Source: Corynebacterium kalidii (GTDB lineage Bacteria; Actinomycetota; Actinomycetes; Mycobacteriales; Mycobacteriaceae). Taken from it: a stretch of DNA of 64,000 bases. The position numbers and the translations under genes were made by a program. The notes beneath the pieces were generated by a model. The model saw only the letters and a list, made by a program, of their open reading frames with translations, was not told the DNA's origin and made no database searches. Below are positions 2,617 to 64,000 of the stretch, one piece after another. The DNA is taken from NCBI RefSeq assembly GCF_022869005.1, contig NZ_JALIEA010000008.1:62001-126000 (forward strand), in the 5' to 3' direction. Within the stretch, counting starts at the first letter, position 1. Each line of letters opens with the position of its first letter.

Positions 2617-5600
2617 GTGCATCCCACTGATGATTCTCAACCGCCGCTCACACGTGGCGATGTCGCGGCACCTCCCCGGACCCTGGTCGACATTCTTCGG
2701 GCGACCGCTGAGGCGTACCCCGAAGCCTCGGCCATCGACGACGGGTCGGGGGCGCTGAGCTACGCCGAGCTGCTTGAGGCGGTCGAGGCGACCGCGGCGA
2801 CGTTGCGCTCGGCGGGTGTGCGGCCGGGGGACCGCGTGGGGGTCCGCGTCGACTCTGGTTCGCAGGAACTCTACGTCTCGATTCTCGCGGTGATGCTCGC
2901 CCGCGCCGCGTACGTCCCGGTCGACGTCGACGACACCGATGAGCGGGCCCGCCTGGTCTTCGGGGAGGCGCACGCGGTCGGCATCGTCGGCAACGACGGC
3001 TACGTGCCGAGTGCGCAGGTAGGCGACGCACAGGGTGGACCCCGGGGCGGGGTGGACGCCGACGACCCGGCACCGGACGACGACGCCTGGGTGATCTTCA
3101 CCTCCGGTTCCACGGGGGTGCCGAAGGGCGTCGCGGTGACGCACCGTTCGGCGGCGGCGTTCGTGGACGCGGAGGCGAACCTCTTCCTGCAGGACGACCC
3201 GCTCGGCCCCGGCGACCGCGTCCTCGCGGGGCTGTCGGTCGCGTTCGACGCGTCGTGCGAGGAGATGTGGCTCGCCTGGCGCCACGGCGCGTGTCTCGTG
3301 CCGGCGCCCCGCTCGCTGGTGCGGAGCGGGGAGGACCTCGCCGGGTGGCTCGTGCGCCAGGGCATCACGGTCGTCTCCACCGTGCCGACGCTCGCGGCGA
3401 TGTGGCCGGCCGAGGCGATCGAGAACGTGCGGCTGCTCATCTTCGGCGGAGAGGCCTGTCCTCCCGAGCTCGCCGCGCGCCTGGGGGAGGAGGGGCGCGA
3501 GGTGTGGAACACCTACGGCCCGACCGAGGCGACCGTGGTGTCGTGCGGCTGCCGGCTCGACGGGACGAGTCCGGTCAGCATCGGCCTGCCCCTCGACGGC
3601 TGGGACCTCGCGGTGGTCGACACCGAGGGTGCCCGCGTCGCGCCGGGGGAGCAGGGCGAGCTCATCATCGGCGGGGTCGGGCTCGCCCGCTACCTCGACC
3701 CCGCGAAGGACGCGGAGAAGTACGCCCCGATGCCGACCCTCGGCTGGGACCGCGCCTACCGTTCCGGCGACCTGGTGCGGTACGAGGAGGACGGCCTCAT
3801 CTTCGTCGGTCGTGCCGACGACCAGGTGAAGGTCGGCGGGCGTCGCATCGAACTCGGCGAGGTGGAGAATGCGCTGCAGGACCTGCCCGGTGTCACCGCG
3901 GCGGCCGCCGCCGTGAGGGAGAGCGACGCGGGGGTGCCGTTGCTGGTCGGCTACCTCGTCGTCGAGGGCGGCTGCGAACTCGACCGCGGCGCGGCCCGTG
4001 AGCACCTCGCCGCACGGCTCGCGGCGGGCGTGATGCCGGTCCTCGCGGTCGTCGACGACATGCCCACGAGGACCTCGGGCAAGGTGGACCGTGCGGCGCT
4101 CCCGTGGCCGCTGCCACCGTCGGCGACCGGGGGCGGGGCGGGCCAGGGCACCCCGGGTGAGGGGATCGACGCGTCCTGCACGGAGGCCGAGCAGTGGCTG
4201 GCGGAGCAGTGGCAGGCGGTCCTCGGGACGCCGGTGCCGGGCACCGACGCCAACTTTTTCGACCTCGGCGGTGGTTCCCTCGCCGCGGCCCAGCTGGTCA
4301 GCCGGATCCGCGTCAGGGTGCCCGAGTTCGCCGTCGCCGACGTGTACGACGTGCCGCGGCTGGAGGCGATGGCGAAGGCCGTCGCCGCGACCGACGCGCA
4401 GAACGACCCCGACTCCTTCCGCCGGCCCGTCCCGACACCGCGACGCACCCAGTGGCTGCAGACGCTCGCCGGGATCCCGCTGTTCATCGCGGGCGGCGTG
4501 CGGTGGCTCGTCTACCTCCTCACGGCGGGCACGGTCCTCACCGCCGTCGACGCCGACGCCTTCCGCGTCATGCCGAGTGTGTCCTGGTGGGTGCTCGGCA
4601 TCGCGGTCCTCGTCGTCTCCACCCCGTTCGGCCGCATGGGTACCGCCGCGCTCGTGGCCCGCCTGCTGCTGTCCGGGCTCGCCCCCGGTGACTACCCGCG
4701 GGGTGGTGCCACCCACATGCGTCTGTGGATCGCCGAGCAGTTCGCCGCCCAGATCGACGCCGTCGGTCTCGCGGGTGCCCCCTGGATCACGACGTACGCG
4801 CGTCTGCTCGGTGCGAAGGTCGACCGTGACGTGTCGCTGCACACGCTGCCGCCGATCACCGGGATGCTGGAGATCGGCCGCAACTCGGCGATCGAGCCCG
4901 AGACCGACCTCTCCGGGTACTGGATCGACGGTGACCTGCTGCGCGTCGGGCGGATACGCATCGGCCGCGACGTCACCGTCGGGGCGCGGTCGACACTCGC
5001 CCCCGGCACCCGCATCGACGACGGCGCGGAGATCGCCGTCGGCTCCGCCGTGTTCGGCCGGGTGAAGTCGGGCCAGCGGTGGGGCGGGTCGCCCGCCGTG
5101 CGTATCGGCGGTGCACGGGGCAGGTCAGGGAGCTCAGGAAGTTCCGGCAGTGTGTGGCCCGGGAAGAAGCCGCGGCAGGTGCCGGCGTGGAAGGTCGCCT
5201 ACGGCGTGTCCTCGGTCGCCCTCGCCCTGCTGCCGTTCGTGGCCTTCGCCGTGGGGGCCGCGATCCTGTCGACCGGGATCGCGGGCGCGGACACCCCCTG
5301 GCAGGGGTTGCTCGGCTCGCTCGTCTGGCTGGCGCCGGCGGTGCTCGCGGTCGGCGTCGTGTACGCCGGGGCGGTCCTGGTGCTCGTGCGCCTGTGCTCG
5401 ATCGGCGTGAAGGAGGGGACGTTCCCCGTGCACAGCCGCGTCGGCTGGCAGGTGTGGACCACGGAGCGCCTGCTCGACGCGTCGCGCAGTTTCCTCTTCC
5501 CGATCTACTCGAGCCTGTTCACCCCCGTGTGGCTGCGGCTGCTCGGTGCCCGGGTCGGGTCCAACGTCGAGGCGTCGACGGTGCTGCTGCTGCCGACGAT

Positions 5601-6607: not shown

Positions 6608-7984
6608 ATGTCCCCGACCTCTGCCCCGCACCCGTACCTCCCGGACTCCGGCGACCCCCGTTTCTCGGTGGCGCACACCCGGCTCGACCTCGACTACACC
6701 CCACGCACCAACCGCCTCGAGGGGCGGGCCGAGCTCACCGTGCGCGTGCTCGAGGAGACCCGTGACCTGCGCTTCGACCTGGTCGGGCTCCGGGCGGGCA
6801 AGGTGCGCGTCGACGGGAAGGTGCACAAGCAGCTCAAACGTGGGGCACACGCGCTCCACGTGCGTTTCGACGACCGCCTGCCGGTGGGGACGACGCTGAC
6901 CGTCGTCATCGACTACGCCGGCAAGCCCGCGCCGCGCCGGTCGCACTGGGGCGAGGTCGGTTGGGAGGAGCTCACGAACGGTGCGCTCGTCGCCTCGCAG
7001 CCGTGCGGCGCACCCACGTGGTTCCCCTGCAACGACCGTGTCGACGACCGCGGCACCTACGACGTCGAGTTCACGTGCGACCGGGGGTTCTTCGTCGCCG
7101 TGACCGGTGTGCCGGGGCGGGTCACACCGGCAGGCGGCAAGCTGACCTGGCGGTTCGAGAGTCGGGTGCCGACGGCGACGTACCTGCTCGCCGCGAACGT
7201 GGGGGAGTACTCGGAGTACGCGTTCCGCTGGACGACGGTCGGTGACGTCGTCGGCGGTGCGGTGCGCGCCGGGGCACGGGCCGTGACCGGACGCGCCCCG
7301 CGGGGGGTCGGCTCCGCGCGGCTCGTCGCCCCGCCGGCACACTCCGGCCTGGTGCGCGAGGCGTTCTCGCCGGTGCCCGACATGGTCGCAGTCTTCGAGG
7401 ACTGGTTCGGCGACTACCCGCAGGAGGACCTGACGATCGTCGTCGTCGACGAGGACCTGGAGATCCCCCTCGAGGCGCAGGGCATGGCGTCCTTCGGCCT
7501 GAACCACTGCGAGGAGTCGGAGCAGCGGCTCATCGCACACGAGATCTCCCACCAGTGGTTCGGCAACAGTGTCGGCCTCGCCCGCTGGGAGGACATCTGG
7601 CTCAACGAGGGGTTCGCCTGCTTCGCCGAGTGGGTGTGGTCCCAGGAGTCCGGTGGACCGTCGATCGCCGAGTGCGCCGAGGAGCACCACGCGCGGCTCG
7701 CCGGGCTGCCGCAGGACCTGAGGCTCCTCGACCCCGGTGCAGCCGACATGTTCGACGACCGCGTGTACAAGCGGGGCGCGCTGCTGCTCGAGACGCTCAG
7801 GCGCACCCTCGGCGACGAGACCTTCCGTGGACTGCTGCGTACCTGGGCCGACACCAGGAGGCACCGCCTCGGCACCACGGACGAGTTCACGGCCCTCGCC
7901 GACGCGGTGAGCCCCGAACCGCTCGACGACGTCTGGCAGGCCTGGTTGCACCGCACCCCGCTGCCGGATCTGCCGGTGGGGTAG
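6608..7984 (+). CDS. M1 family zinc metallopeptidase (aminopeptidase)
   Basis: A 458-residue cytoplasmic protein with the full gluzincin site: HEISH at residues 311-315 and the third zinc ligand Glu334 in LNEGF, plus an N-terminal beta-sandwich domain. It is about half the length of PepN because the long C-terminal helical domain is missing, as in short actinobacterial M1 enzymes. No signal peptide is seen. It follows the NRPS by 10 bp and is probably co-transcribed, so it may trim, recycle or protect against the peptide that the synthetase makes. That link is inferred from position. Confidence 0.88.
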   Translation: MSPTSAPHPYLPDSGDPRFSVAHTRLDLDYTPRTNRLEGRAELTVRVLEETRDLRFDLVGLRAGKVRVDGKVHKQLKRGAHALHVRFDDRLPVGTTLTVVIDYAGKPAPRRSHWGEVGWEELTNGALVASQPCGAPTWFPCNDRVDDRGTYDVEFTCDRGFFVAVTGVPGRVTPAGGKLTWRFESRVPTATYLLAANVGEYSEYAFRWTTVGDVVGGAVRAGARAVTGRAPRGVGSARLVAPPAHSGLVREAFSPVPDMVAVFEDWFGDYPQEDLTIVVVDEDLEIPLEAQGMASFGLNHCEESEQRLIAHEISHQWFGNSVGLARWEDIWLNEGFACFAEWVWSQESGGPSIAECAEEHHARLAGLPQDLRLLDPGAADMFDDRVYKRGALLLETLRRTLGDETFRGLLRTWADTRRHRLGTTDEFTALADAVSPEPLDDVWQAWLHRTPLPDLPVG

Positions 7985-8019
7985 CCGACGGTCAGCGCGC
8001 GGCACCTCCGGTTTCCCGC

Positions 8020-8092
8020 GATGTCGAATGATCGCCCTCCCAGGTAGCGAAATACACTGATCCGCTGCCTGGGAGGGCGATCATTCGACATC
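8020..8092. repeat. 73-bp palindromic element, family 1, copy A
   Basis: Two 30-base arms (8020-8049 and 8063-8092), starting GATGTCGAATGATCGCCC, pair at 29 of 30 positions around a 13-base spacer. The element lies between the convergent ends of the M1 peptidase and the YeiB-like gene, where it could act as a bidirectional terminator. A second copy of identical length lies at 48338-48410. Confidence 0.85.
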
Positions 8093-43486: not shown

Positions 43487-44752
43487 ATGAGCAGCGACGA
43501 CCGGTCCGTCCAGCCCACGGAGCACGAATCGCGCGCGGACGCCGGCACCGCCGCCCGCCGCGCCGCCGCACTGCAGGCCCGCACCCGGTTGACCGACGCC
43601 ACGGGTCGTCCGTTCGGGTTCGACACGAACGCCATCCACTCGGGCTACGAGCCGGACGGCCAGACCGGCGCGATCAACGCCCCGATCTACGCGTCGACCA
43701 CCTACGCGCAGGACGGCGTCGCACAGCTCCGCGGCGGTTTCGAGTACTCCCGCTGCGGCAACCCGACGGTCACGGCCCTGGAGGAGGCCGTCGCCGCGCT
43801 GGAGGGTGCGAAGTTCGGGCGGGCGTTCGCCTCCGGCATGGCCGCGACGGACACCGTCCTGCGTGCCCTGCTGAAGCCTGGGGCCCACGTCATCCTGGGC
43901 AACGACGCCTATGGCGGGACGTTCCGCCTGTTCGACACCACCTACCGCGACTGGGGCGTGGAGATGTCGGTCGTCGATACGGCGGACACCGCGCAGATCG
44001 CCGCGGCGCTGCGTCCCGACACGAAGCTGGTGTGGCTGGAGACGCCCACCAACCCGATGCTCGGTATCACGGACATCGCCGCCACGGCCGACGCCCTGAA
44101 GGACCACCCTGCCAAGCTGATCGTGGACAACACCTTCGCCAGCCCGTACCTGCAGCGCCCGTTGGCACTCGGGGCGGACGTGGTGATGCACTCGACCACG
44201 AAGTACCTCGGCGGGCACTCGGACGTCGTGGGCGGGGTCATCGTGACCGACGACGAGGAGCTCGACGGCGAACTCCTCTTCCTCCAGGGCGGGGTCGGCG
44301 CGGTGCCCAGCCCCTTCGACGCCTACCTGACCTACCGTGGCATCAAGACCCTCGGAGTGCGTATGGACCGCCACTGCGCCAACGCGCAGGCCGTCGCCGA
44401 GTACCTGGACGGACGCCCGGAGATCGCCCAGGTGCTGTACCCGGGCCTGCCCGGCCACCCCGGTCACGACGTCGCCGCCGCCCAGATGGACGGTTTCGGC
44501 GCCATGGTGTCGGTCCGGTTCGCCGGCGGTGAGGCGCCTGCCCTGCAGTTCTGCGAGAACACCCGCCTGATCTGCCTGGCGGAGTCCCTCGGTGGGGTGG
44601 AGTCGCTGCTGGAGCACCCGGCGAAGATGACCCACCAGTCGGCGGCGGGGTCCGCCCTGGAGGTGCCGGACGACCTGGTGCGCATCTCCATCGGTATCGA
44701 GAACATCGAGGACCTCCTCGCCGACCTCGGGCAGGCGCTGGACGCCCTGTGA
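43487..44752 (+). CDS. metB: Cystathionine gamma-synthase
   Basis: A 421-residue PLP enzyme that makes cystathionine from an activated homoserine ester and cysteine on the way to methionine. The PLP lysine is in MHSTTKYLGGHSD, with other family blocks in YSRCGNPT, FASGMAA and ETPTNPMLGI. A start with AGGAGAG eight bases upstream. A cystathionine gamma-lyase function is an alternative, but the McbR-like box favours MetB. The next gene overlaps the stop as GTGA. Confidence 0.88.
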   Translation: MSSDDRSVQPTEHESRADAGTAARRAAALQARTRLTDATGRPFGFDTNAIHSGYEPDGQTGAINAPIYASTTYAQDGVAQLRGGFEYSRCGNPTVTALEEAVAALEGAKFGRAFASGMAATDTVLRALLKPGAHVILGNDAYGGTFRLFDTTYRDWGVEMSVVDTADTAQIAAALRPDTKLVWLETPTNPMLGITDIAATADALKDHPAKLIVDNTFASPYLQRPLALGADVVMHSTTKYLGGHSDVVGGVIVTDDEELDGELLFLQGGVGAVPSPFDAYLTYRGIKTLGVRMDRHCANAQAVAEYLDGRPEIAQVLYPGLPGHPGHDVAAAQMDGFGAMVSVRFAGGEAPALQFCENTRLICLAESLGGVESLLEHPAKMTHQSAAGSALEVPDDLVRISIGIENIEDLLADLGQALDAL

Positions 44753-45510
44753 GCTCCGCTCCCACCTACGATCCCGCGGCCTGCCGTGTCGGGATCACCC
44801 CCGGTCACGCCGTGCTGCATGTGGAACTGTGGCACCCGAACTGGGGGTCGGCGGCCACCGATGCGCTGCGGCGCAGCCTCTTCGGAGCGGACGGTCCGGC
44901 CGGTGGTTCGGCACCCGACGTCTCCGCGGCGCACCGGATGCTGGACGAGGCCCTCGGCGCCGGCCGGGCCGCCGGCTGGCTGGGGCGGGTGACCGTGACC
45001 GACCACAGCCCGGGGCACTCCGTCGGCATGGCCGAGCTGCAGGACCGCGTCGAACGCATGGCGCAGGACGCCGTGGGCGCGGACGGGCGTCCCGCGTACG
45101 CCGTCCTCAACGCAGGTCAGGGTGCGACGCGCAGGACGGCGCGGGTCGTCCTGCCGTTGTCCCCGACCGTGGCCCCGGGCTGTGACCTGCATGTTCCGGT
45201 GACCCTGGGGACGGACCCCGTGGCGTCGTCGGACCTGACGATGGCGCAGATCGAGGACCGGTCCGCGGCCGTCCGGGAGGCGCTCGCCGACACCGTCGAC
45301 GAGAACAACGCGGGAATCCTCGCCGTCACCGAGTTCCGTTCCGGGGCGGACACGATGCACTTCTACCTGGACTCCACCGCACCCGCGGTGATGGACAGGT
45401 CGGTGCTGAACACGCTGCGCGCGGTGGCGTCCGCCTGGCAGTACGGCGACACGGTCGTCGACGAGGAGGACGACCCCGGCTGGGACGCCGTCCGGGCCTA
45501 CCGTGTGTGA
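44749..45510 (+). CDS. Unknown protein coupled to metB, DUF695-like C-terminus
   Basis: A 253-residue soluble protein starting with GTG 44749, overlapping the metB stop by 4 bp. The C-terminal third (MHFYLDST ... YGDTVVDEEDDPGWDAV) resembles the DUF695 family, where DPxW near the end is typical; this match is weak. The tight coupling suggests a role related to MetB or to sulfur metabolism, unproven. Its last three codons lie inside the left 112-bp direct repeat. Confidence 0.6.
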   Translation: MSSAPTYDPAACRVGITPGHAVLHVELWHPNWGSAATDALRRSLFGADGPAGGSAPDVSAAHRMLDEALGAGRAAGWLGRVTVTDHSPGHSVGMAELQDRVERMAQDAVGADGRPAYAVLNAGQGATRRTARVVLPLSPTVAPGCDLHVPVTLGTDPVASSDLTMAQIEDRSAAVREALADTVDENNAGILAVTEFRSGADTMHFYLDSTAPAVMDRSVLNTLRAVASAWQYGDTVVDEEDDPGWDAVRAYRV

Positions 45511-45613
45511 ATGATTCAATCCTGGGGGACCTGGAGTCGCCAGGATGTGAATGTGTGTGAATGTTGTCGAATGTTTGTCGAATGCGGTGTGAATGCACGG
45601 TCTGGTCGGCAGG
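45502..45613. repeat. 112-bp direct repeat, left copy, flanking the AlbA_2 cassette
   Basis: Matches 47314-47425 at all but three positions. It holds six GAATG motifs at 45509, 45549, 45559, 45569, 45580 and 45591 and the hairpin ATCCTGG/CCAGGAT (45519-45525, 45540-45546). It covers the stop codon of the upstream gene and ends immediately before the AlbA_2 gene stop. Confidence 0.92.
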
Positions 45614-47296
45614 TCACCGCTCTGGCAGCGTGTAGTACGTGTTCCTTGTTGTGCCGTGTTTTTGCAGCTCCCCCGAGTTCGTCAACTCCTTGAGCAGGCG
45701 GTAGACGGCAGTGCCGGTGAGCCCGCAGGTTTCGGCGGCCTGAGCGCGGGTCACGGAGCCGTACTCCGTGGCATAGGCGAGGATGAGTTGGCGGGCGCGG
45801 ACATCGTCGAGGTCCTGGGAGCGGATGAAGTCCGACCGGCGGCCCACCGAATCGAAGAACGCTGAGCCGAGACGGTACTCCCTGGTCGCCCCGCGACCGA
45901 GTGCCTCGACCAGGGAAAGGTCGGTGAGCCGGTGTACCGTGCGCCGGAGTCGGGTCGGCTTTTCGCCCAGTAGTGCCGCCAGATCCTCGGACGATGCCCG
46001 TCCGTCCGCGTGCAGGCAATGGAGGACCCTGAGCTGGCGGACGTCCAGGTCGCCGTGGTCGCGCTGCCAGGTGGCGACGAACCGGGCGAACTCCCGGTCG
46101 GTGTCGGCGGTCGGGATCTCGACGACAACCTGTTCGTCCGTGGTCGAGGTGTAGTCGGGTTCCCCGTGCCCGGAACGTAGGAGGGACTGGTACATGAGGC
46201 GCACACCGCGCCCTGCCCTGTCGACGATCCCCGCACGTTTGAAGGCGTCGGCCAGAGCCGGACTGCGGGGTACCGAATCCTCGATGATGGTCTCCAGGGT
46301 GACCCCACGCGGGAGCCCGCCGGGGCTGGTCACAGACAGCCTCTCGCGTTCGAGCAGGATCTTCACCGGCCCGAGCGCGGTGTAGTCGCGGTGGATCAGG
46401 GCGTTGGCCACGGCCTCGCGGCTGACCCGCTCGGGAAGGTTCGGGAGGGCGACACGCACCATGCCGAGGGTGATCTCGTCCTCGGTCCGGTAGACGTCGA
46501 GACGGGCGGTGACGTCTTCGACGGCGGCGAACAGAGGTGAGGTGGTGCGGTGGTTGACCGACACCGCGTTGCCGTCCATGACCTGGAAGATGATCTCGTG
46601 GTTGGGGATCCACCTGGCCACGGAGGACCGGGTGCCGAAGAGGAGGACTGCTCCGAGCTTCACCGGATCCGGACCGTTGTCGTAGAACCGAAGTGCACGC
46701 AGGATGTCCTCGTCCGGGAGATCGGCGAGCAGGTCGTCGCCGCCGCTGGCGCGAATCATCGCCCGGAAGCGGTCGAATTCCCGTGTGTCGAGGTCCTGGA
46801 GAGTGGCACCTACGGCGTCGAGGGTGGACCAGTCCCGGGCGTTCACGCTGTTGTACCGGCTGAAGAGGTAGCTGGGGTCCATCGCCACGCATTCGGGCCC
46901 GCCGTTGATGCGCATCGTGCGGCGCTGGTACAGGCCGTTGGATGTGGCGACCGGGGACGGTGACGCAGGGACGGTGACCTGCACGATGTCATGGCCGTCG
47001 ACGGTGATGACCTCGACCTGGCATGCCACCGGGGGAACTGTCCTGTGCTGGATCAGGGCCTCGAGTCGCGCGGGATCCGTGGCACCTGTCTTCCGGTCCC
47101 AGGGGGCGCATCCGGTGATCGTGCCGTCGTCCTCGACTCCGATGAGGAGCTGCCCGCCCTCTCCGTTCGCCATGCAGGCGACCGTGGCGGAGAGTTTGTC
47201 CTCGCTGAAACGGCCAGGTTCGCGACGGCTCTTGAACTCCACGGTCAGGGACTCGCCTGCGGCGATAAGCGAGCGGACGTTGTCTGCGCTGGTCAT
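45614..47296 (-). CDS. AlbA_2 (Schlafen-like) / HATPase_c_4 / winged-helix regulator
   Basis: A 560-residue protein. An AlbA_2 DNA-binding domain comes first (about residues 5-130, with LTVEFKSRREPG and ACMANGEGGQLLIGVED). A HATPase_c_4 region follows (VSREAVANALIHRDY ... VTSPGGLPRGVTLETI), then two C-terminal winged helices (about residues 430-560). Such proteins are annotated as putative transcription factors; the ATPase role is unclear. ATG 47296 lies six bases after a perfect TATGAT, with TTGAAT 17 bases further up, both at the edge of the right direct repeat. The 1.8-kb unit looks horizontally acquired. Confidence 0.85.
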   Translation of the reverse strand: MTSADNVRSLIAAGESLTVEFKSRREPGRFSEDKLSATVACMANGEGGQLLIGVEDDGTITGCAPWDRKTGATDPARLEALIQHRTVPPVACQVEVITVDGHDIVQVTVPASPSPVATSNGLYQRRTMRINGGPECVAMDPSYLFSRYNSVNARDWSTLDAVGATLQDLDTREFDRFRAMIRASGGDDLLADLPDEDILRALRFYDNGPDPVKLGAVLLFGTRSSVARWIPNHEIIFQVMDGNAVSVNHRTTSPLFAAVEDVTARLDVYRTEDEITLGMVRVALPNLPERVSREAVANALIHRDYTALGPVKILLERERLSVTSPGGLPRGVTLETIIEDSVPRSPALADAFKRAGIVDRAGRGVRLMYQSLLRSGHGEPDYTSTTDEQVVVEIPTADTDREFARFVATWQRDHGDLDVRQLRVLHCLHADGRASSEDLAALLGEKPTRLRRTVHRLTDLSLVEALGRGATREYRLGSAFFDSVGRRSDFIRSQDLDDVRARQLILAYATEYGSVTRAQAAETCGLTGTAVYRLLKELTNSGELQKHGTTRNTYYTLPER

Positions 47297-47302
47297 GCGG
47301 TT

Positions 47303-47331
47303 ATCATAGTGCTCGTGTGTGAATGATTCAA
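47303..47331 (-). promoter_or_regulatory. Promoter of the AlbA_2 gene, overlapping iterons
   Basis: On the minus strand TTGAAT (47331-47326) and TATGAT (47308-47303) are 17 bases apart, a near-consensus promoter with a leaderless start at 47296. The GAATG motif at 47321-47325 abuts the -35 box, and five more lie just upstream, so a protein on the array would cover the promoter. The left repeat copy keeps the -35 box but has no -10 box. Confidence 0.7.
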
Positions 47332-47425
47332 TCCTGGGGGACCTGGAGTCGCCAGGATGTGAATGTGTGTGAATGTTTTCGAATGTTTTCCGAATGCGGT
47401 GTGAATGCACGGTCTGGTCGGCAGG
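47314..47425. repeat. 112-bp direct repeat, right copy, with phased GAATG iterons
   Basis: Six GAATG motifs start at 47321, 47361, 47371, 47381, 47392 and 47403, so five are spaced 10-11 bp apart on one face of the helix. The same spacing occurs in the left copy. It ends 14 bases before the -10 box of the following YdeI-like gene. Confidence 0.92.
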
Positions 47426-47451
47426 ACGGGGTGCGGTGTAGGTTCGGTCCC

Positions 47452-47787
47452 ATGAGTGAGACAGTGACTTCCGCGGCGTCCTCGGCTTCCGGGGCCGACT
47501 CAGAGCCTGCCGTCCCCGGCGGCGTCGTCCACGACCTTCCGGACGACCTGCGTGCCGCGGTCCTCGGCGGTGACCGGGGAGAGGGCGACGACGGCAGCCC
47601 GTCGGTGGCCAGGAGCGTGCTGGACCTGTGGGCCGACATCACCCCGCTGGCCCGCAACGAGTTCATCTGCTGGGTGGAGGACGCCAAGCAGGCGAAGACC
47701 CGCGCCCGCCGGATCCGGCGGACCTGTGAGGAGCTCGAGGAGGGCAAGCGTCGCCCCTGCTGCTGGCCCGGGTGCAAGCACCGCTGA
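47452..47787 (+). CDS. YdeI/OmpD-associated family protein
   Basis: A 111-residue protein whose C-terminal half fits the YdeI/OmpD-associated domain: SVLDLWADITPLARNEFICW then EDAKQAKTRARRIRR and EELEEGKRR. The N-terminal 45 residues are Ser/Ala-rich and low in complexity. It is shorter than the usual family member. ATG 47452 lies seven bases after TAGGTT, a leaderless start. Function is not established; some relatives affect bacteriocin or peptide tolerance. Confidence 0.72.
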   Translation: MSETVTSAASSASGADSEPAVPGGVVHDLPDDLRAAVLGGDRGEGDDGSPSVARSVLDLWADITPLARNEFICWVEDAKQAKTRARRIRRTCEELEEGKRRPCCWPGCKHR

Positions 47788-48320: not shown

Positions 48321-48337
48321 GTACCGGCGGTGCACGC

Positions 48338-48410
48338 GATGTCGGATTGTCGCCCTCCCAGGTAGGATCCGGGGCCGAACCCCTACCTGTGAGGGCGACA
48401 ATCCGACATC
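48338..48410. repeat. 73-bp palindromic element, family 1, copy B
   Basis: Arms 48338-48366 and 48382-48410 begin GATGTCGGATTGTCGCCC and pair at all but one position around a 15-base centre. Length equals copy A at 8020-8092. Where the two copies differ in the outer arms, both arms changed together, so the palindrome is conserved. Confidence 0.85.
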
Positions 48411-48465
48411 GGGGGGCGACATCATCGGGACGCGACGTCGGCGGGCCGGGACCAGGCGACCACCG

Positions 48466-63622: not shown

Positions 63623-64000
63623 CAGCGAGATGAGTTGGCCGACATCCTCAATGACCTGCGGATCGTCGGTAGTGACGACCGCCGTGTCGAAGTGAAGAGC
63701 GGTGTCGGGAAGTCCATCCGGGACACGTTGAGCGCCTTCTCCAACGGTGACGGGGGCATACTCGTCGTCGGACTGTCCGAGCAGGACGACTTCGCCCCCG
63801 TCCCCGACTTCAACGCGGTGACCGCCCGGGACCAGCTGCTCTCCCGGTGCGACGAGATGACGCCGGTCGTGCGTCCCGACATCGACATCCTTCCGGTGCC
63901 GGGTGGGCCGGAATCTGCGCAGGTGCTGGTCGCGGAGATCCCCGAACTGCAACCGCGGGAGAAGCCCTGTCACATCACGGCGGCGGGTCAGTACCAGGGT
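63620..64000 (+). CDS. AlbA_2 (Schlafen-like) DNA-binding protein, N-terminal part
   Basis: The first 127 residues are seen; the gene runs off the right edge. The AlbA_2 domain is clear: RRVEVKSGVGKSIRDTLSAF, then NGDGGILVVGLSE and the later PCHITAAGQYQG strand. ATG 63620 is seven bases after TAAGTT, a leaderless start inside the iteron array. It is related in its first domain to the regulator at 45614-47296, though the sequences are quite different. The family suggests a transcription factor or a defence-linked protein. Confidence 0.82.
   Translation, partial: MQRDELADILNDLRIVGSDDRRVEVKSGVGKSIRDTLSAFSNGDGGILVVGLSEQDDFAPVPDFNAVTARDQLLSRCDEMTPVVRPDIDILPVPGGPESAQVLVAEIPELQPREKPCHITAAGQYQG

Follow-up and report, generated by a model that had tools for sequence, protein, structure and literature searches.

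Arrays at the 3' end of AlbA_2 genes change together with the C-terminal winged helix: a Corynebacterium kalidii gene between two copies of its candidate operator

In the stretch of Corynebacterium kalidii DNA analysed here (the window: 64,000 nucleotides (nt), contig NZ_JALIEA010000008.1, positions 62,001 to 126,000), a single gene encoding an AlbA_2-type protein is flanked by two direct repeats of 112 nt, each of which carries an array of GAATG motifs (iterons). What are these repeats to the gene between them: its operator, the ends of a mobile element, or a site that belongs to the host? The AlbA_2 gene (45614..47296, minus strand; ATG 47296-47294, stop codon 45616-45614) encodes a protein of 560 amino acids (aa), which is laid out as an SLFN-type domain (residues ~1-120), a GHKL ATPase domain (~184-399), winged helix 1 (~400-486), and winged helix 2 (~499-560). 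Comparison with its relatives showed that the array adjoining the 3' end of the gene changes together with winged helix 2. A pair of loci in which both have been replaced at once, L028 and L140, amounts to a domain swap made by nature and constitutes our principal finding.

The proteins of L028 and L140, both located on contigs of draft sequence, are 98% identical in the middle domain and 89% identical in winged helix 1, and their identity in winged helix 2 is 56%. At the DNA level, the 60-nt bins from −1380 to −181 relative to the stop codon showed 92-100% identity, except for one bin of 88%. Identity then fell to 85, 57, 22, and 30% from −180 to +60 and came back to 77% thereafter. Beyond +60, L028 keeps a relic of a TGCAC array, the type used by L140. 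Such a relic of the older array behind a newer, unlike one was located at 6742-6802 in L028 and at 5110-5167 in L040, and L040 showed the same drop in identity against both L028 and L140. Since the collapse of identity is limited to the last ~120 nt of the gene and the adjacent array, and since a relic of the old array was kept, it is apparent that the replacement took in winged helix 2 and the proximal array jointly.

The same relation was seen across the family. The locus set comprised 39 near-full-length loci chosen by hand out of 80, with partial and distant ones omitted, and 11 from whole-genome searches, including that of the window (L006). Of these 50 loci, 47 were used for the covariation and flank tests; L031, L054, and L055, in which the C-terminus is altered or truncated, were omitted. 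In a covariation test that uses no array labels, array similarity was correlated with the distance of winged helix 2 (residues 503-560) when the middle domain was held constant (partial r −0.178), and 0 of 500 permutations gave a correlation as strong. No correlation with the array was obtained for winged helix 1 (159/500 permutations) or for the AlbA domain (173/500). Among twelve relatives, consisting of eleven of one close group and L057, the identity of the middle domain was 0.76 in pairs of the same array class (17 pairs) and of different classes (49 pairs), and the identity of winged helix 2 was 0.75 and 0.59, respectively, the classes of these 12 loci having been set by eye and therefore not blind. 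Because the array sequence tracks the C-terminal winged helix family-wide, the protein probably binds its own array. This sequence-based relation lends support to the proposal, made in a preliminary description of the window, that the gene product binds the repeats.

The position of the arrays was assessed by a flank test that scores short direct and inverted repeats (significance, p<=0.01). The 3' flanks were repeat-rich at 31/47 loci, that of the window included, compared with 10/244 of the 3' flanks of other long open reading frames (ORFs) in the same loci (Fisher's test, 1.6e-21). Repeat-rich 5' flanks, measured from the start of the match, which may begin a few codons inside the gene, were detected at 7/47 loci (7e-7 against the 3' flanks). 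With another random seed, the counts were 32/47 and 7/47, respectively. The seven repeat-rich 5' flanks are those of the five closest same-genus loci, L026, and L147, and both flanks were positive at the window locus, L007, L008, L010, and L026. The preliminary description had pictured an element with its operator at both ends, and this holds for these five loci but not for the family, in which the array typically stands on the 3' side.

The 3' arrays often consist of iterons phased at 10-11 bp, or of dyads, at the stop codon. Iteron arrays directly behind the stop codon are composed of CGGATCATTTG units in L044 and L045, GTTTAGTCCGC in L049, GGAATCGGAT in L052 and L062, GTTATGGGCC in L056, and TTATGCGCGC in L029, and dyads such as ATAACCGCGCGCGGTTAT occur there in L027, L028, and L038. 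At 6627-6735 of L049, ten GTCCGCGTTT units with 11-bp spacing begin before the stop codon (ending at 6638) and run through it. In the Propionibacteriaceae contig of L026, a TTATGCATA-type array occurs three times in the surroundings of the gene, at 4928, 6712, and 7021. Literature searches, limited to open-access PMC, yielded no description of such arrays.

In the window, the left repeat copy (45502..45613, plus strand) directly abuts the stop codon of the AlbA_2 gene and forms its 3'-side array, and the right copy (47314..47425, plus strand) is situated between the AlbA_2 gene and the divergent OmdA-domain (YdeI/OmpD-associated) gene (47452..47787, plus strand). The two copies are identical at 109/112 positions (3 differences). 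Their six GAATG motifs start at 45509, 45549, 45559, 45569, 45580, and 45591 (left iteron set, 45509..45595, plus strand) and at 47321, 47361, 47371, 47381, 47392, and 47403 (right iteron set, 47321..47407, plus strand), with the same spacing of 40, 10, 10, 11, and 11 bp. Six GAATG motifs in the right copy were reached by 0/2000 dinucleotide shuffles (shuffle mean, 0.84). When the right copy was used to search the own genome (G000; 3.02 Mb, 99.5% complete, a draft of 17 contigs), matches were obtained solely at these two places (E<=0.001), and a genome-wide search with a loose array pattern was likewise confined to the two repeats.

The −35 box of the AlbA_2 promoter (TTGAAT, 47326..47331, minus strand) lies within the right repeat, and the −10 box (TATGAT, 47303..47308, minus strand) lies just outside it and is absent beside the left copy. 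This promoter, TTGAAT-17-TATGAT (47331..47303, minus strand), is one of two promoter-like sites in 45300-47600, where the shuffle mean was 0.1. The TGA (45508-45510) of the upstream gene (44749..45510, plus strand; 253 aa, no Pfam match at E<=0.01) falls inside the left repeat. A Pfam scan of 13 proteins from the stretch between 38.5 and 55.2 kb, 3 of which had no Pfam match, revealed no recombinase, transposase, or integrase. The repeats with their regular iterons, the overlap of the right copy with the promoter, the left copy over the stop codon of the upstream gene with no −10 box beside it, and the lack of a recombinase had all been noted in the preliminary description, and its observation is thus confirmed.

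An inverted repeat extends from iteron 1 to iteron 2 (ATTCAATCCTGG...CCAGGATGTGAAT; 47326..47364), and the same dyad is present at 45514-45552 in the left copy. This dyad accounts for the moderate stability of the single-strand fold (z −2.6 to −3.0). By eye, the dyad is not kept in the same-genus genomes G030 and G003, and we therefore did not regard it as a required structure. No Rfam match was found in 45400-47600 at E<=0.1, and no transfer RNA (tRNA) was found in 40-53 kb of the window; readings as a structured RNA and as a tRNA-linked island were accordingly rejected.

The same site was compared among 242 same-genus genomes, one per species. The upstream gene was present in 12 of them, that of the window included. 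The empty site with a single repeat copy that the preliminary description had envisaged does exist: between the upstream gene and the OmdA gene, G030, G003, and G176 carry a single GAATG array, and the AlbA_2 gene is missing. One array of the same type was found in G127, a partial array of two iterons in G028, and, on another contig, the same array beside OmdA in G024. OmdA is kept and the array is absent in G115, G040, and G146, and G160 showed no OmdA match and, by eye, no array. The closest relative as judged by the upstream gene (G124, 87%) has neither the array nor the AlbA_2 gene, with only ~25 bp between the genes. Just past the stop codon of its upstream gene (L104), GTGTGAACGACT stands where the window has GTGTGAATGATT, which is possibly a decayed first iteron. 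The AlbA_2 paralogues of the solo-array genomes are distant only, the best one being 26-35% identical (30-31% in G030, G003, and G176). Over the genus, the loose array pattern occurred in 7/242 genomes and a control pattern in at least 1. Three GTGAAT/GCGAAT motifs with 12-bp spacing were observed in L118, L127, and L129 (genomes G176, G030, and G003), upstream of a gene named DtxR-like by eye.

The gene itself was matched at E<=1e-60 in 17/242 same-genus genomes, that of the window included, once in each, and only 5 of these 17 loci (the window, L007, L008, L009, and L010) share at least 54% identity. In three other samples, 3/74, 3/369, and 5/396 genomes gave one match each under the thresholds applied, with the genome of the query included in the count. 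A second match within one genome was a single case in another sample (43% identical), and near-identical multiple copies within a genome were not found at strict E-values. The own genome contains two further AlbA_2-type matches, which are 28-32% identical. At G000:C8:125716-126666, which corresponds to 63716-64000 of the window and continues past its end, there is a gene for a distant protein of the AlbA_2 type (28% identity). Relatives on plasmids were not found at E<=1e-40, and the three matches obtained in phage records (E<=1e-20) were distant, with 22-26% identity.

Long flanking direct repeats, with differing sequences, were also present at L007 (68/71 identical), L008 (73/76), and L010 (73/75). 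L007 and L008 share one site, between a DUF454 gene and a HigA-like gene, and the copies agree at 67/70 positions when taken from one genome and at 56-60/70 when compared across the two genomes. Since the likeness within a genome exceeds that between genomes, these copies evolve in concert and therefore recombine. The promoter layout is common to the window, L007/L008, and L010, with the −35 box (TTGAAT, TTGAAT, and TTGCAA, respectively) in the repeat and the −10 box (TATGAT, TAAACT, and TAGAAT) outside it; the pair was found by a scan in the window only, and the promoters of L007/L008 and L010 were read by eye. No L008-type array without the gene was detected in 198 relatives. Both genomes matched (G044 and G046) have the gene, and the related array of G156 did not turn up either, its genome lying outside the sample or its array having been overlooked.

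Outside the genus, long flanking repeats were observed in 6/38 loci versus 1/166 displaced control boxes (Fisher's test, 1.8e-4), the 38 being those of the 41 listed loci with 500 bp on both sides, and in 0/8 further loci (L140-L147). In four of the six, the repeats are duplicates of the hsdM 3' end, and they are therefore another kind of repeat than that of the window. The order in these loci is hsdM, AlbA_2 gene, array, hsdM 3'-end duplicate, and hsdS (L027, 905-2850; L028, 5001-6900; L040, 3317-5280; L047, 5001-6980), and the duplicate keeps, by eye, an AAGGAG-type ribosome-binding site of hsdS. Because this order is common to several loci and the ribosome-binding site is kept, the arrangement may be inherited from one event. 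For the same reasons, a target-site duplication was rejected as an explanation of these repeats (hsdM tails of 46-159 nt; 27 nt in L042).

The Pfam domains of the 560-aa protein are SLFN_AlbA_2, HATPase_c_4, and HTH_24, and PF04326 (65.8 bits; cut-off, 25.3) and PF13749 (51 bits; cut-off, 26) both scored above their curated cut-offs. A structure model was built from 31 sequences (mean predicted local distance difference test score, 87.9). Residues 1-120 of the model matched the N-domain of Schlafen SLFN5/11/13 (PDB 7cux, 7zep, and 5yd0) with Z 10.0-10.3 and a root mean square deviation (rmsd) of 2.6-2.8 over 110-111 residues, and a Foldseek search gave E 9.6e-5 for 5yd0. E15, E20, and K22 as well as the GHKL residues E294, N298, and H302 are invariant in the 31 sequences, and D56/D57 are nearly invariant; in the model, E15, E20, K22, and D56/D57 sit on the Schlafen-like fold. 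The conserved acids are presumably those assigned as catalytic in work on SLFN proteins. Unlike the Schlafen proteins, the window protein is bacterial, is fused to a GHKL ATPase and winged helices, and is nuclease-like by prediction only. The middle of the model matched histidine-kinase ATPase domains (Z up to 9.7, rmsd ~3), and the winged helices at ~400-486 and 499-560 were also matched in the structure comparison. DIP2311 of Corynebacterium diphtheriae (PDB 3lmm) aligned with residues 4-488 of the model (Z 28.1, 433 residues, 26% identity) and was detected by phmmer over residues 30-381 (E 6.5e-26), but it is distant in sequence, and the rmsd of 14.6 indicates that the arrangement of the domains differs between the model and the crystal. 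A COG2865-like label presumably applies to SLFN_AlbA_2/HATPase_c_4 proteins in general.

A large part of the sampled family has restriction or other defence genes nearby. Among the upstream neighbours scanned (31 kept of 50 machine-picked ORFs), there were 10 N6_Mtase, 2 HsdS, and 3 MmeI-type proteins, and among the downstream neighbours (25 kept of 48), 7 HsdS, 2 HsdR, 2 HNH_2, and 1 PglZ; likely wrong-frame ORFs were dropped by eye, which may raise the restriction fractions. In the window, no integron integrase was found among the neighbours scanned. No restriction gene adjoins the AlbA_2 gene in the window, L007, or L008 among the proteins scanned, nor, by eye, in L010.

At 48337-48411 of the window, there is a near-perfect inverted repeat with 30-nt arms and a 15-nt loop. 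With a 106-nt query around it, 19 matches were obtained across the genome, counting the site itself; many of these are both strands of one palindrome, and it is therefore a dispersed palindromic repeat. A further copy is located at approximately 8017-8092 of the window.

On balance, these results make it probable that the AlbA_2 protein is a stand-alone, self-binding regulator/effector with a cis array, that the right copy is its autoregulatory operator and the left copy the 3' array of the family, and that the copies recombine, sometimes deleting the gene. It would belong to a defence-linked family whose polypeptide combines a nuclease-like domain of the Schlafen type with a GHKL ATPase and two winged helices. 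Winged helix 2 is predicted to bind half-sites on one helix face (10-11 bp phase) of the array beside the 3' end of the gene, and the left copy would be an array at the position commonly used by the family. When the right array, which also lies directly upstream of the divergent OmdA gene, is occupied, the −35 box would be masked and the AlbA_2 gene silenced. The GHKL domain may decide whether the protein is bound or free, and release from the array would lead to a burst of the nuclease-like effector. Being near-identical direct repeats, the two copies would recombine, which explains their concerted evolution and predicts deletion to a solo array: gene conversion would keep them alike, and an occasional deletion would leave one array behind. 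Binding by the window protein, autorepression, an origin of the solo arrays by deletion, and a toxic or growth-arresting activity that would need tight self-control are inferences.

Several results weigh against this explanation. The strongest one against regarding the solo array as a simple scar is that the array is kept in species without the gene. In G030, G003, and G176, iteron 1 and the iteron block had 0/68 variable columns, compared with 19/79 in the spacer and the stretch to the OmdA start (Fisher's test, 2.5e-6; three close species only). Therefore, something keeps the array there without this gene; the array is not bound up with the gene at this site, and the preliminary description is not supported on this point. 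It is possible either that another protein binds the conserved solo arrays or that gain and loss of the gene at the strain level keeps the binder near. The covariation holds at the level of the family, of which the window's own array is a single case, and the middle domain still correlates with the array when winged helix 2 is held constant, though more weakly (7/500 permutations). In addition, 16/47 loci failed the 3'-flank test, and seven of these scored zero (L009, L024, L034, L036, L037, L060, and L147), although in L037 the tested stretch missed the iterons, which overlap the stop codon, and iterons or dyads can be made out by eye in L034 and L060. Long flanking repeats are present in only 4/17 same-genus loci (the window, L007, L008, and L010) and are absent at L009, which has one array only, on its 5' side, and at 12 more distant loci. 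Furthermore, promoter control does not explain a 3' array between convergent genes.

The conserved solo arrays also speak for a different history, in which the array was already present in the host as an operator of the OmdA promoter, bound by a different host regulator. The AlbA_2 gene would then have arrived by recombination that duplicated the array, and the gene would have borrowed a −35 box from it. The arrays without the gene upstream of OmdA in G030, G003, G176, G127, G024, and partly G028 fit this history, as does the base composition of the gene, whose G+C content (0.668 versus 0.698 for the window) and third-position G+C content (0.848 versus 0.90 and 0.94 in two neighbours) are slightly low, a hint of possible import. 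However, the relatives of the gene carry elsewhere arrays at the stop codon that track winged helix 2, beside which a coincidental array here would be odd, and G124, G115, G040, and G146 keep OmdA without the array. We therefore regard a resident operator as unlikely. It is doubtful, though a somewhat better prospect, that the family protein acts like a C protein and times the expression of a restriction gene located after the array, the window copy being displaced and partnerless. The restriction and modification genes among the neighbours (N6_Mtase, 10/31 upstream; HsdS, 7/25 downstream) and the several loci in which the array stands between the gene and a restriction gene agree with such a role, but the window, L007, L008, and L010 lack an adjoining restriction gene, the neighbour lists were pruned by eye in a way that may favour it, and the conservation of SLFN and GHKL residues points to a role beyond that of a switch. 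This role is compatible with that of a self-binding regulator/effector, and the readings are not mutually exclusive.

The interpretation given in the preliminary description, a single-gene element with the repeat as both control site and recombination site, was partly supported. That the repeats recombine is borne out by the homogenised copies of L007/L008, whereas mobility driven by the gene is not supported, ordinary homologous recombination being enough to account for its gain and loss. An AlbA_2 protein that acts on the repeats to insert and excise its own gene would fit the different sites and long flanking repeats in different same-genus genomes (the window, L007/L008, and L010), the excess of flanking repeats outside the genus, the solo-array empty sites, and the conserved nuclease-like residues. 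On the other hand, flanking repeats were missing from all eight further loci, the gene is rare, with one close copy per genome at the thresholds used, the plasmid search was negative and the phage matches were distant, and the flanking repeats fall into two dissimilar types, with arrays in the genus of the window and hsdM 3' tails in most others. Self-mobility is thus very improbable. Chance or an assembly artefact can practically be dismissed: the assembly is a draft of 17 contigs, but the copies differ at three positions, shuffled sequences did not reach six GAATG motifs, and the same anatomy occurs in independent genomes.

With the protein as a self-binding regulator/effector, a further step may tentatively be proposed, namely that winged helix 2 and the operator array behind it form one exchangeable specificity cassette. 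In that case, heteroimmunity-like groups would coexist in a cell only if their arrays differ, and the doubled array of the window would ease loss and regain of the gene at a fixed locus. Schlafen-like (AlbA_2) proteins are widespread in bacteria, and the parts of the literature consulted give little mechanism. From the arrays, a DNA target can be predicted for each protein of the family, and loci in which winged helix and array were exchanged in nature offer ready pairs for a specificity swap. If the proposal is true, it would explain how growth-arresting effectors are silenced, provide a rule for the coexistence of copies, and equip a functionally uncharacterised family with testable operators. 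To this the window locus contributes a gene that stands alone, has its operator in duplicate, and is carried by some related species and not by others. The chief interest of the locus is that it leads into a family in which DNA specificity and operator can be exchanged as a single cassette.

For AlbA_2 and HATPase_c_4 together, one phenotype was found in the literature, that of TrlG of Photorhabdus laumondii (PMC7554251). Changes in either domain of TrlG relieve a temperature-dependent growth arrest, these mutations are recessive, and wild-type TrlG restores the arrest (PMC7554251). TrlG has the same two Pfam domains as the window protein in the same order, but it belongs to a three-gene operon, and the available part of the report mentions no array (PMC7554251); the likeness was assessed at the level of domains. 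In the accessible portions of two other papers, COG2865 is labelled RecG-like (PMC7641849) and AlbA_2 genes are reported on mobile elements of Acidithiobacillia (PMC10561277), in neither case with mention of arrays.

The joint exchange of a DNA-reading part and its operators recalls the immunity regions of temperate phages. In those regions, repressor and operators are exchanged together, which yields separate specificity groups. The present locus differs in that it is not a prophage, the protein carries effector-like domains, and the specificity unit would be the last winged helix and the 3' array only. The C proteins of Type II restriction-modification systems are small, single-domain proteins. 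Here, in contrast, a 560-aa SLFN/GHKL/winged-helix protein is accompanied by a 3' array. C proteins act at the C-box in the promoter of the C gene and drive the downstream endonuclease gene, according to the part of the source consulted (PMC8053105). Common to both systems are a DNA-binding protein that is, or is here proposed to be, autoregulatory, repeated cis sites, and, in several loci of the present family, a restriction gene downstream (PMC8053105).

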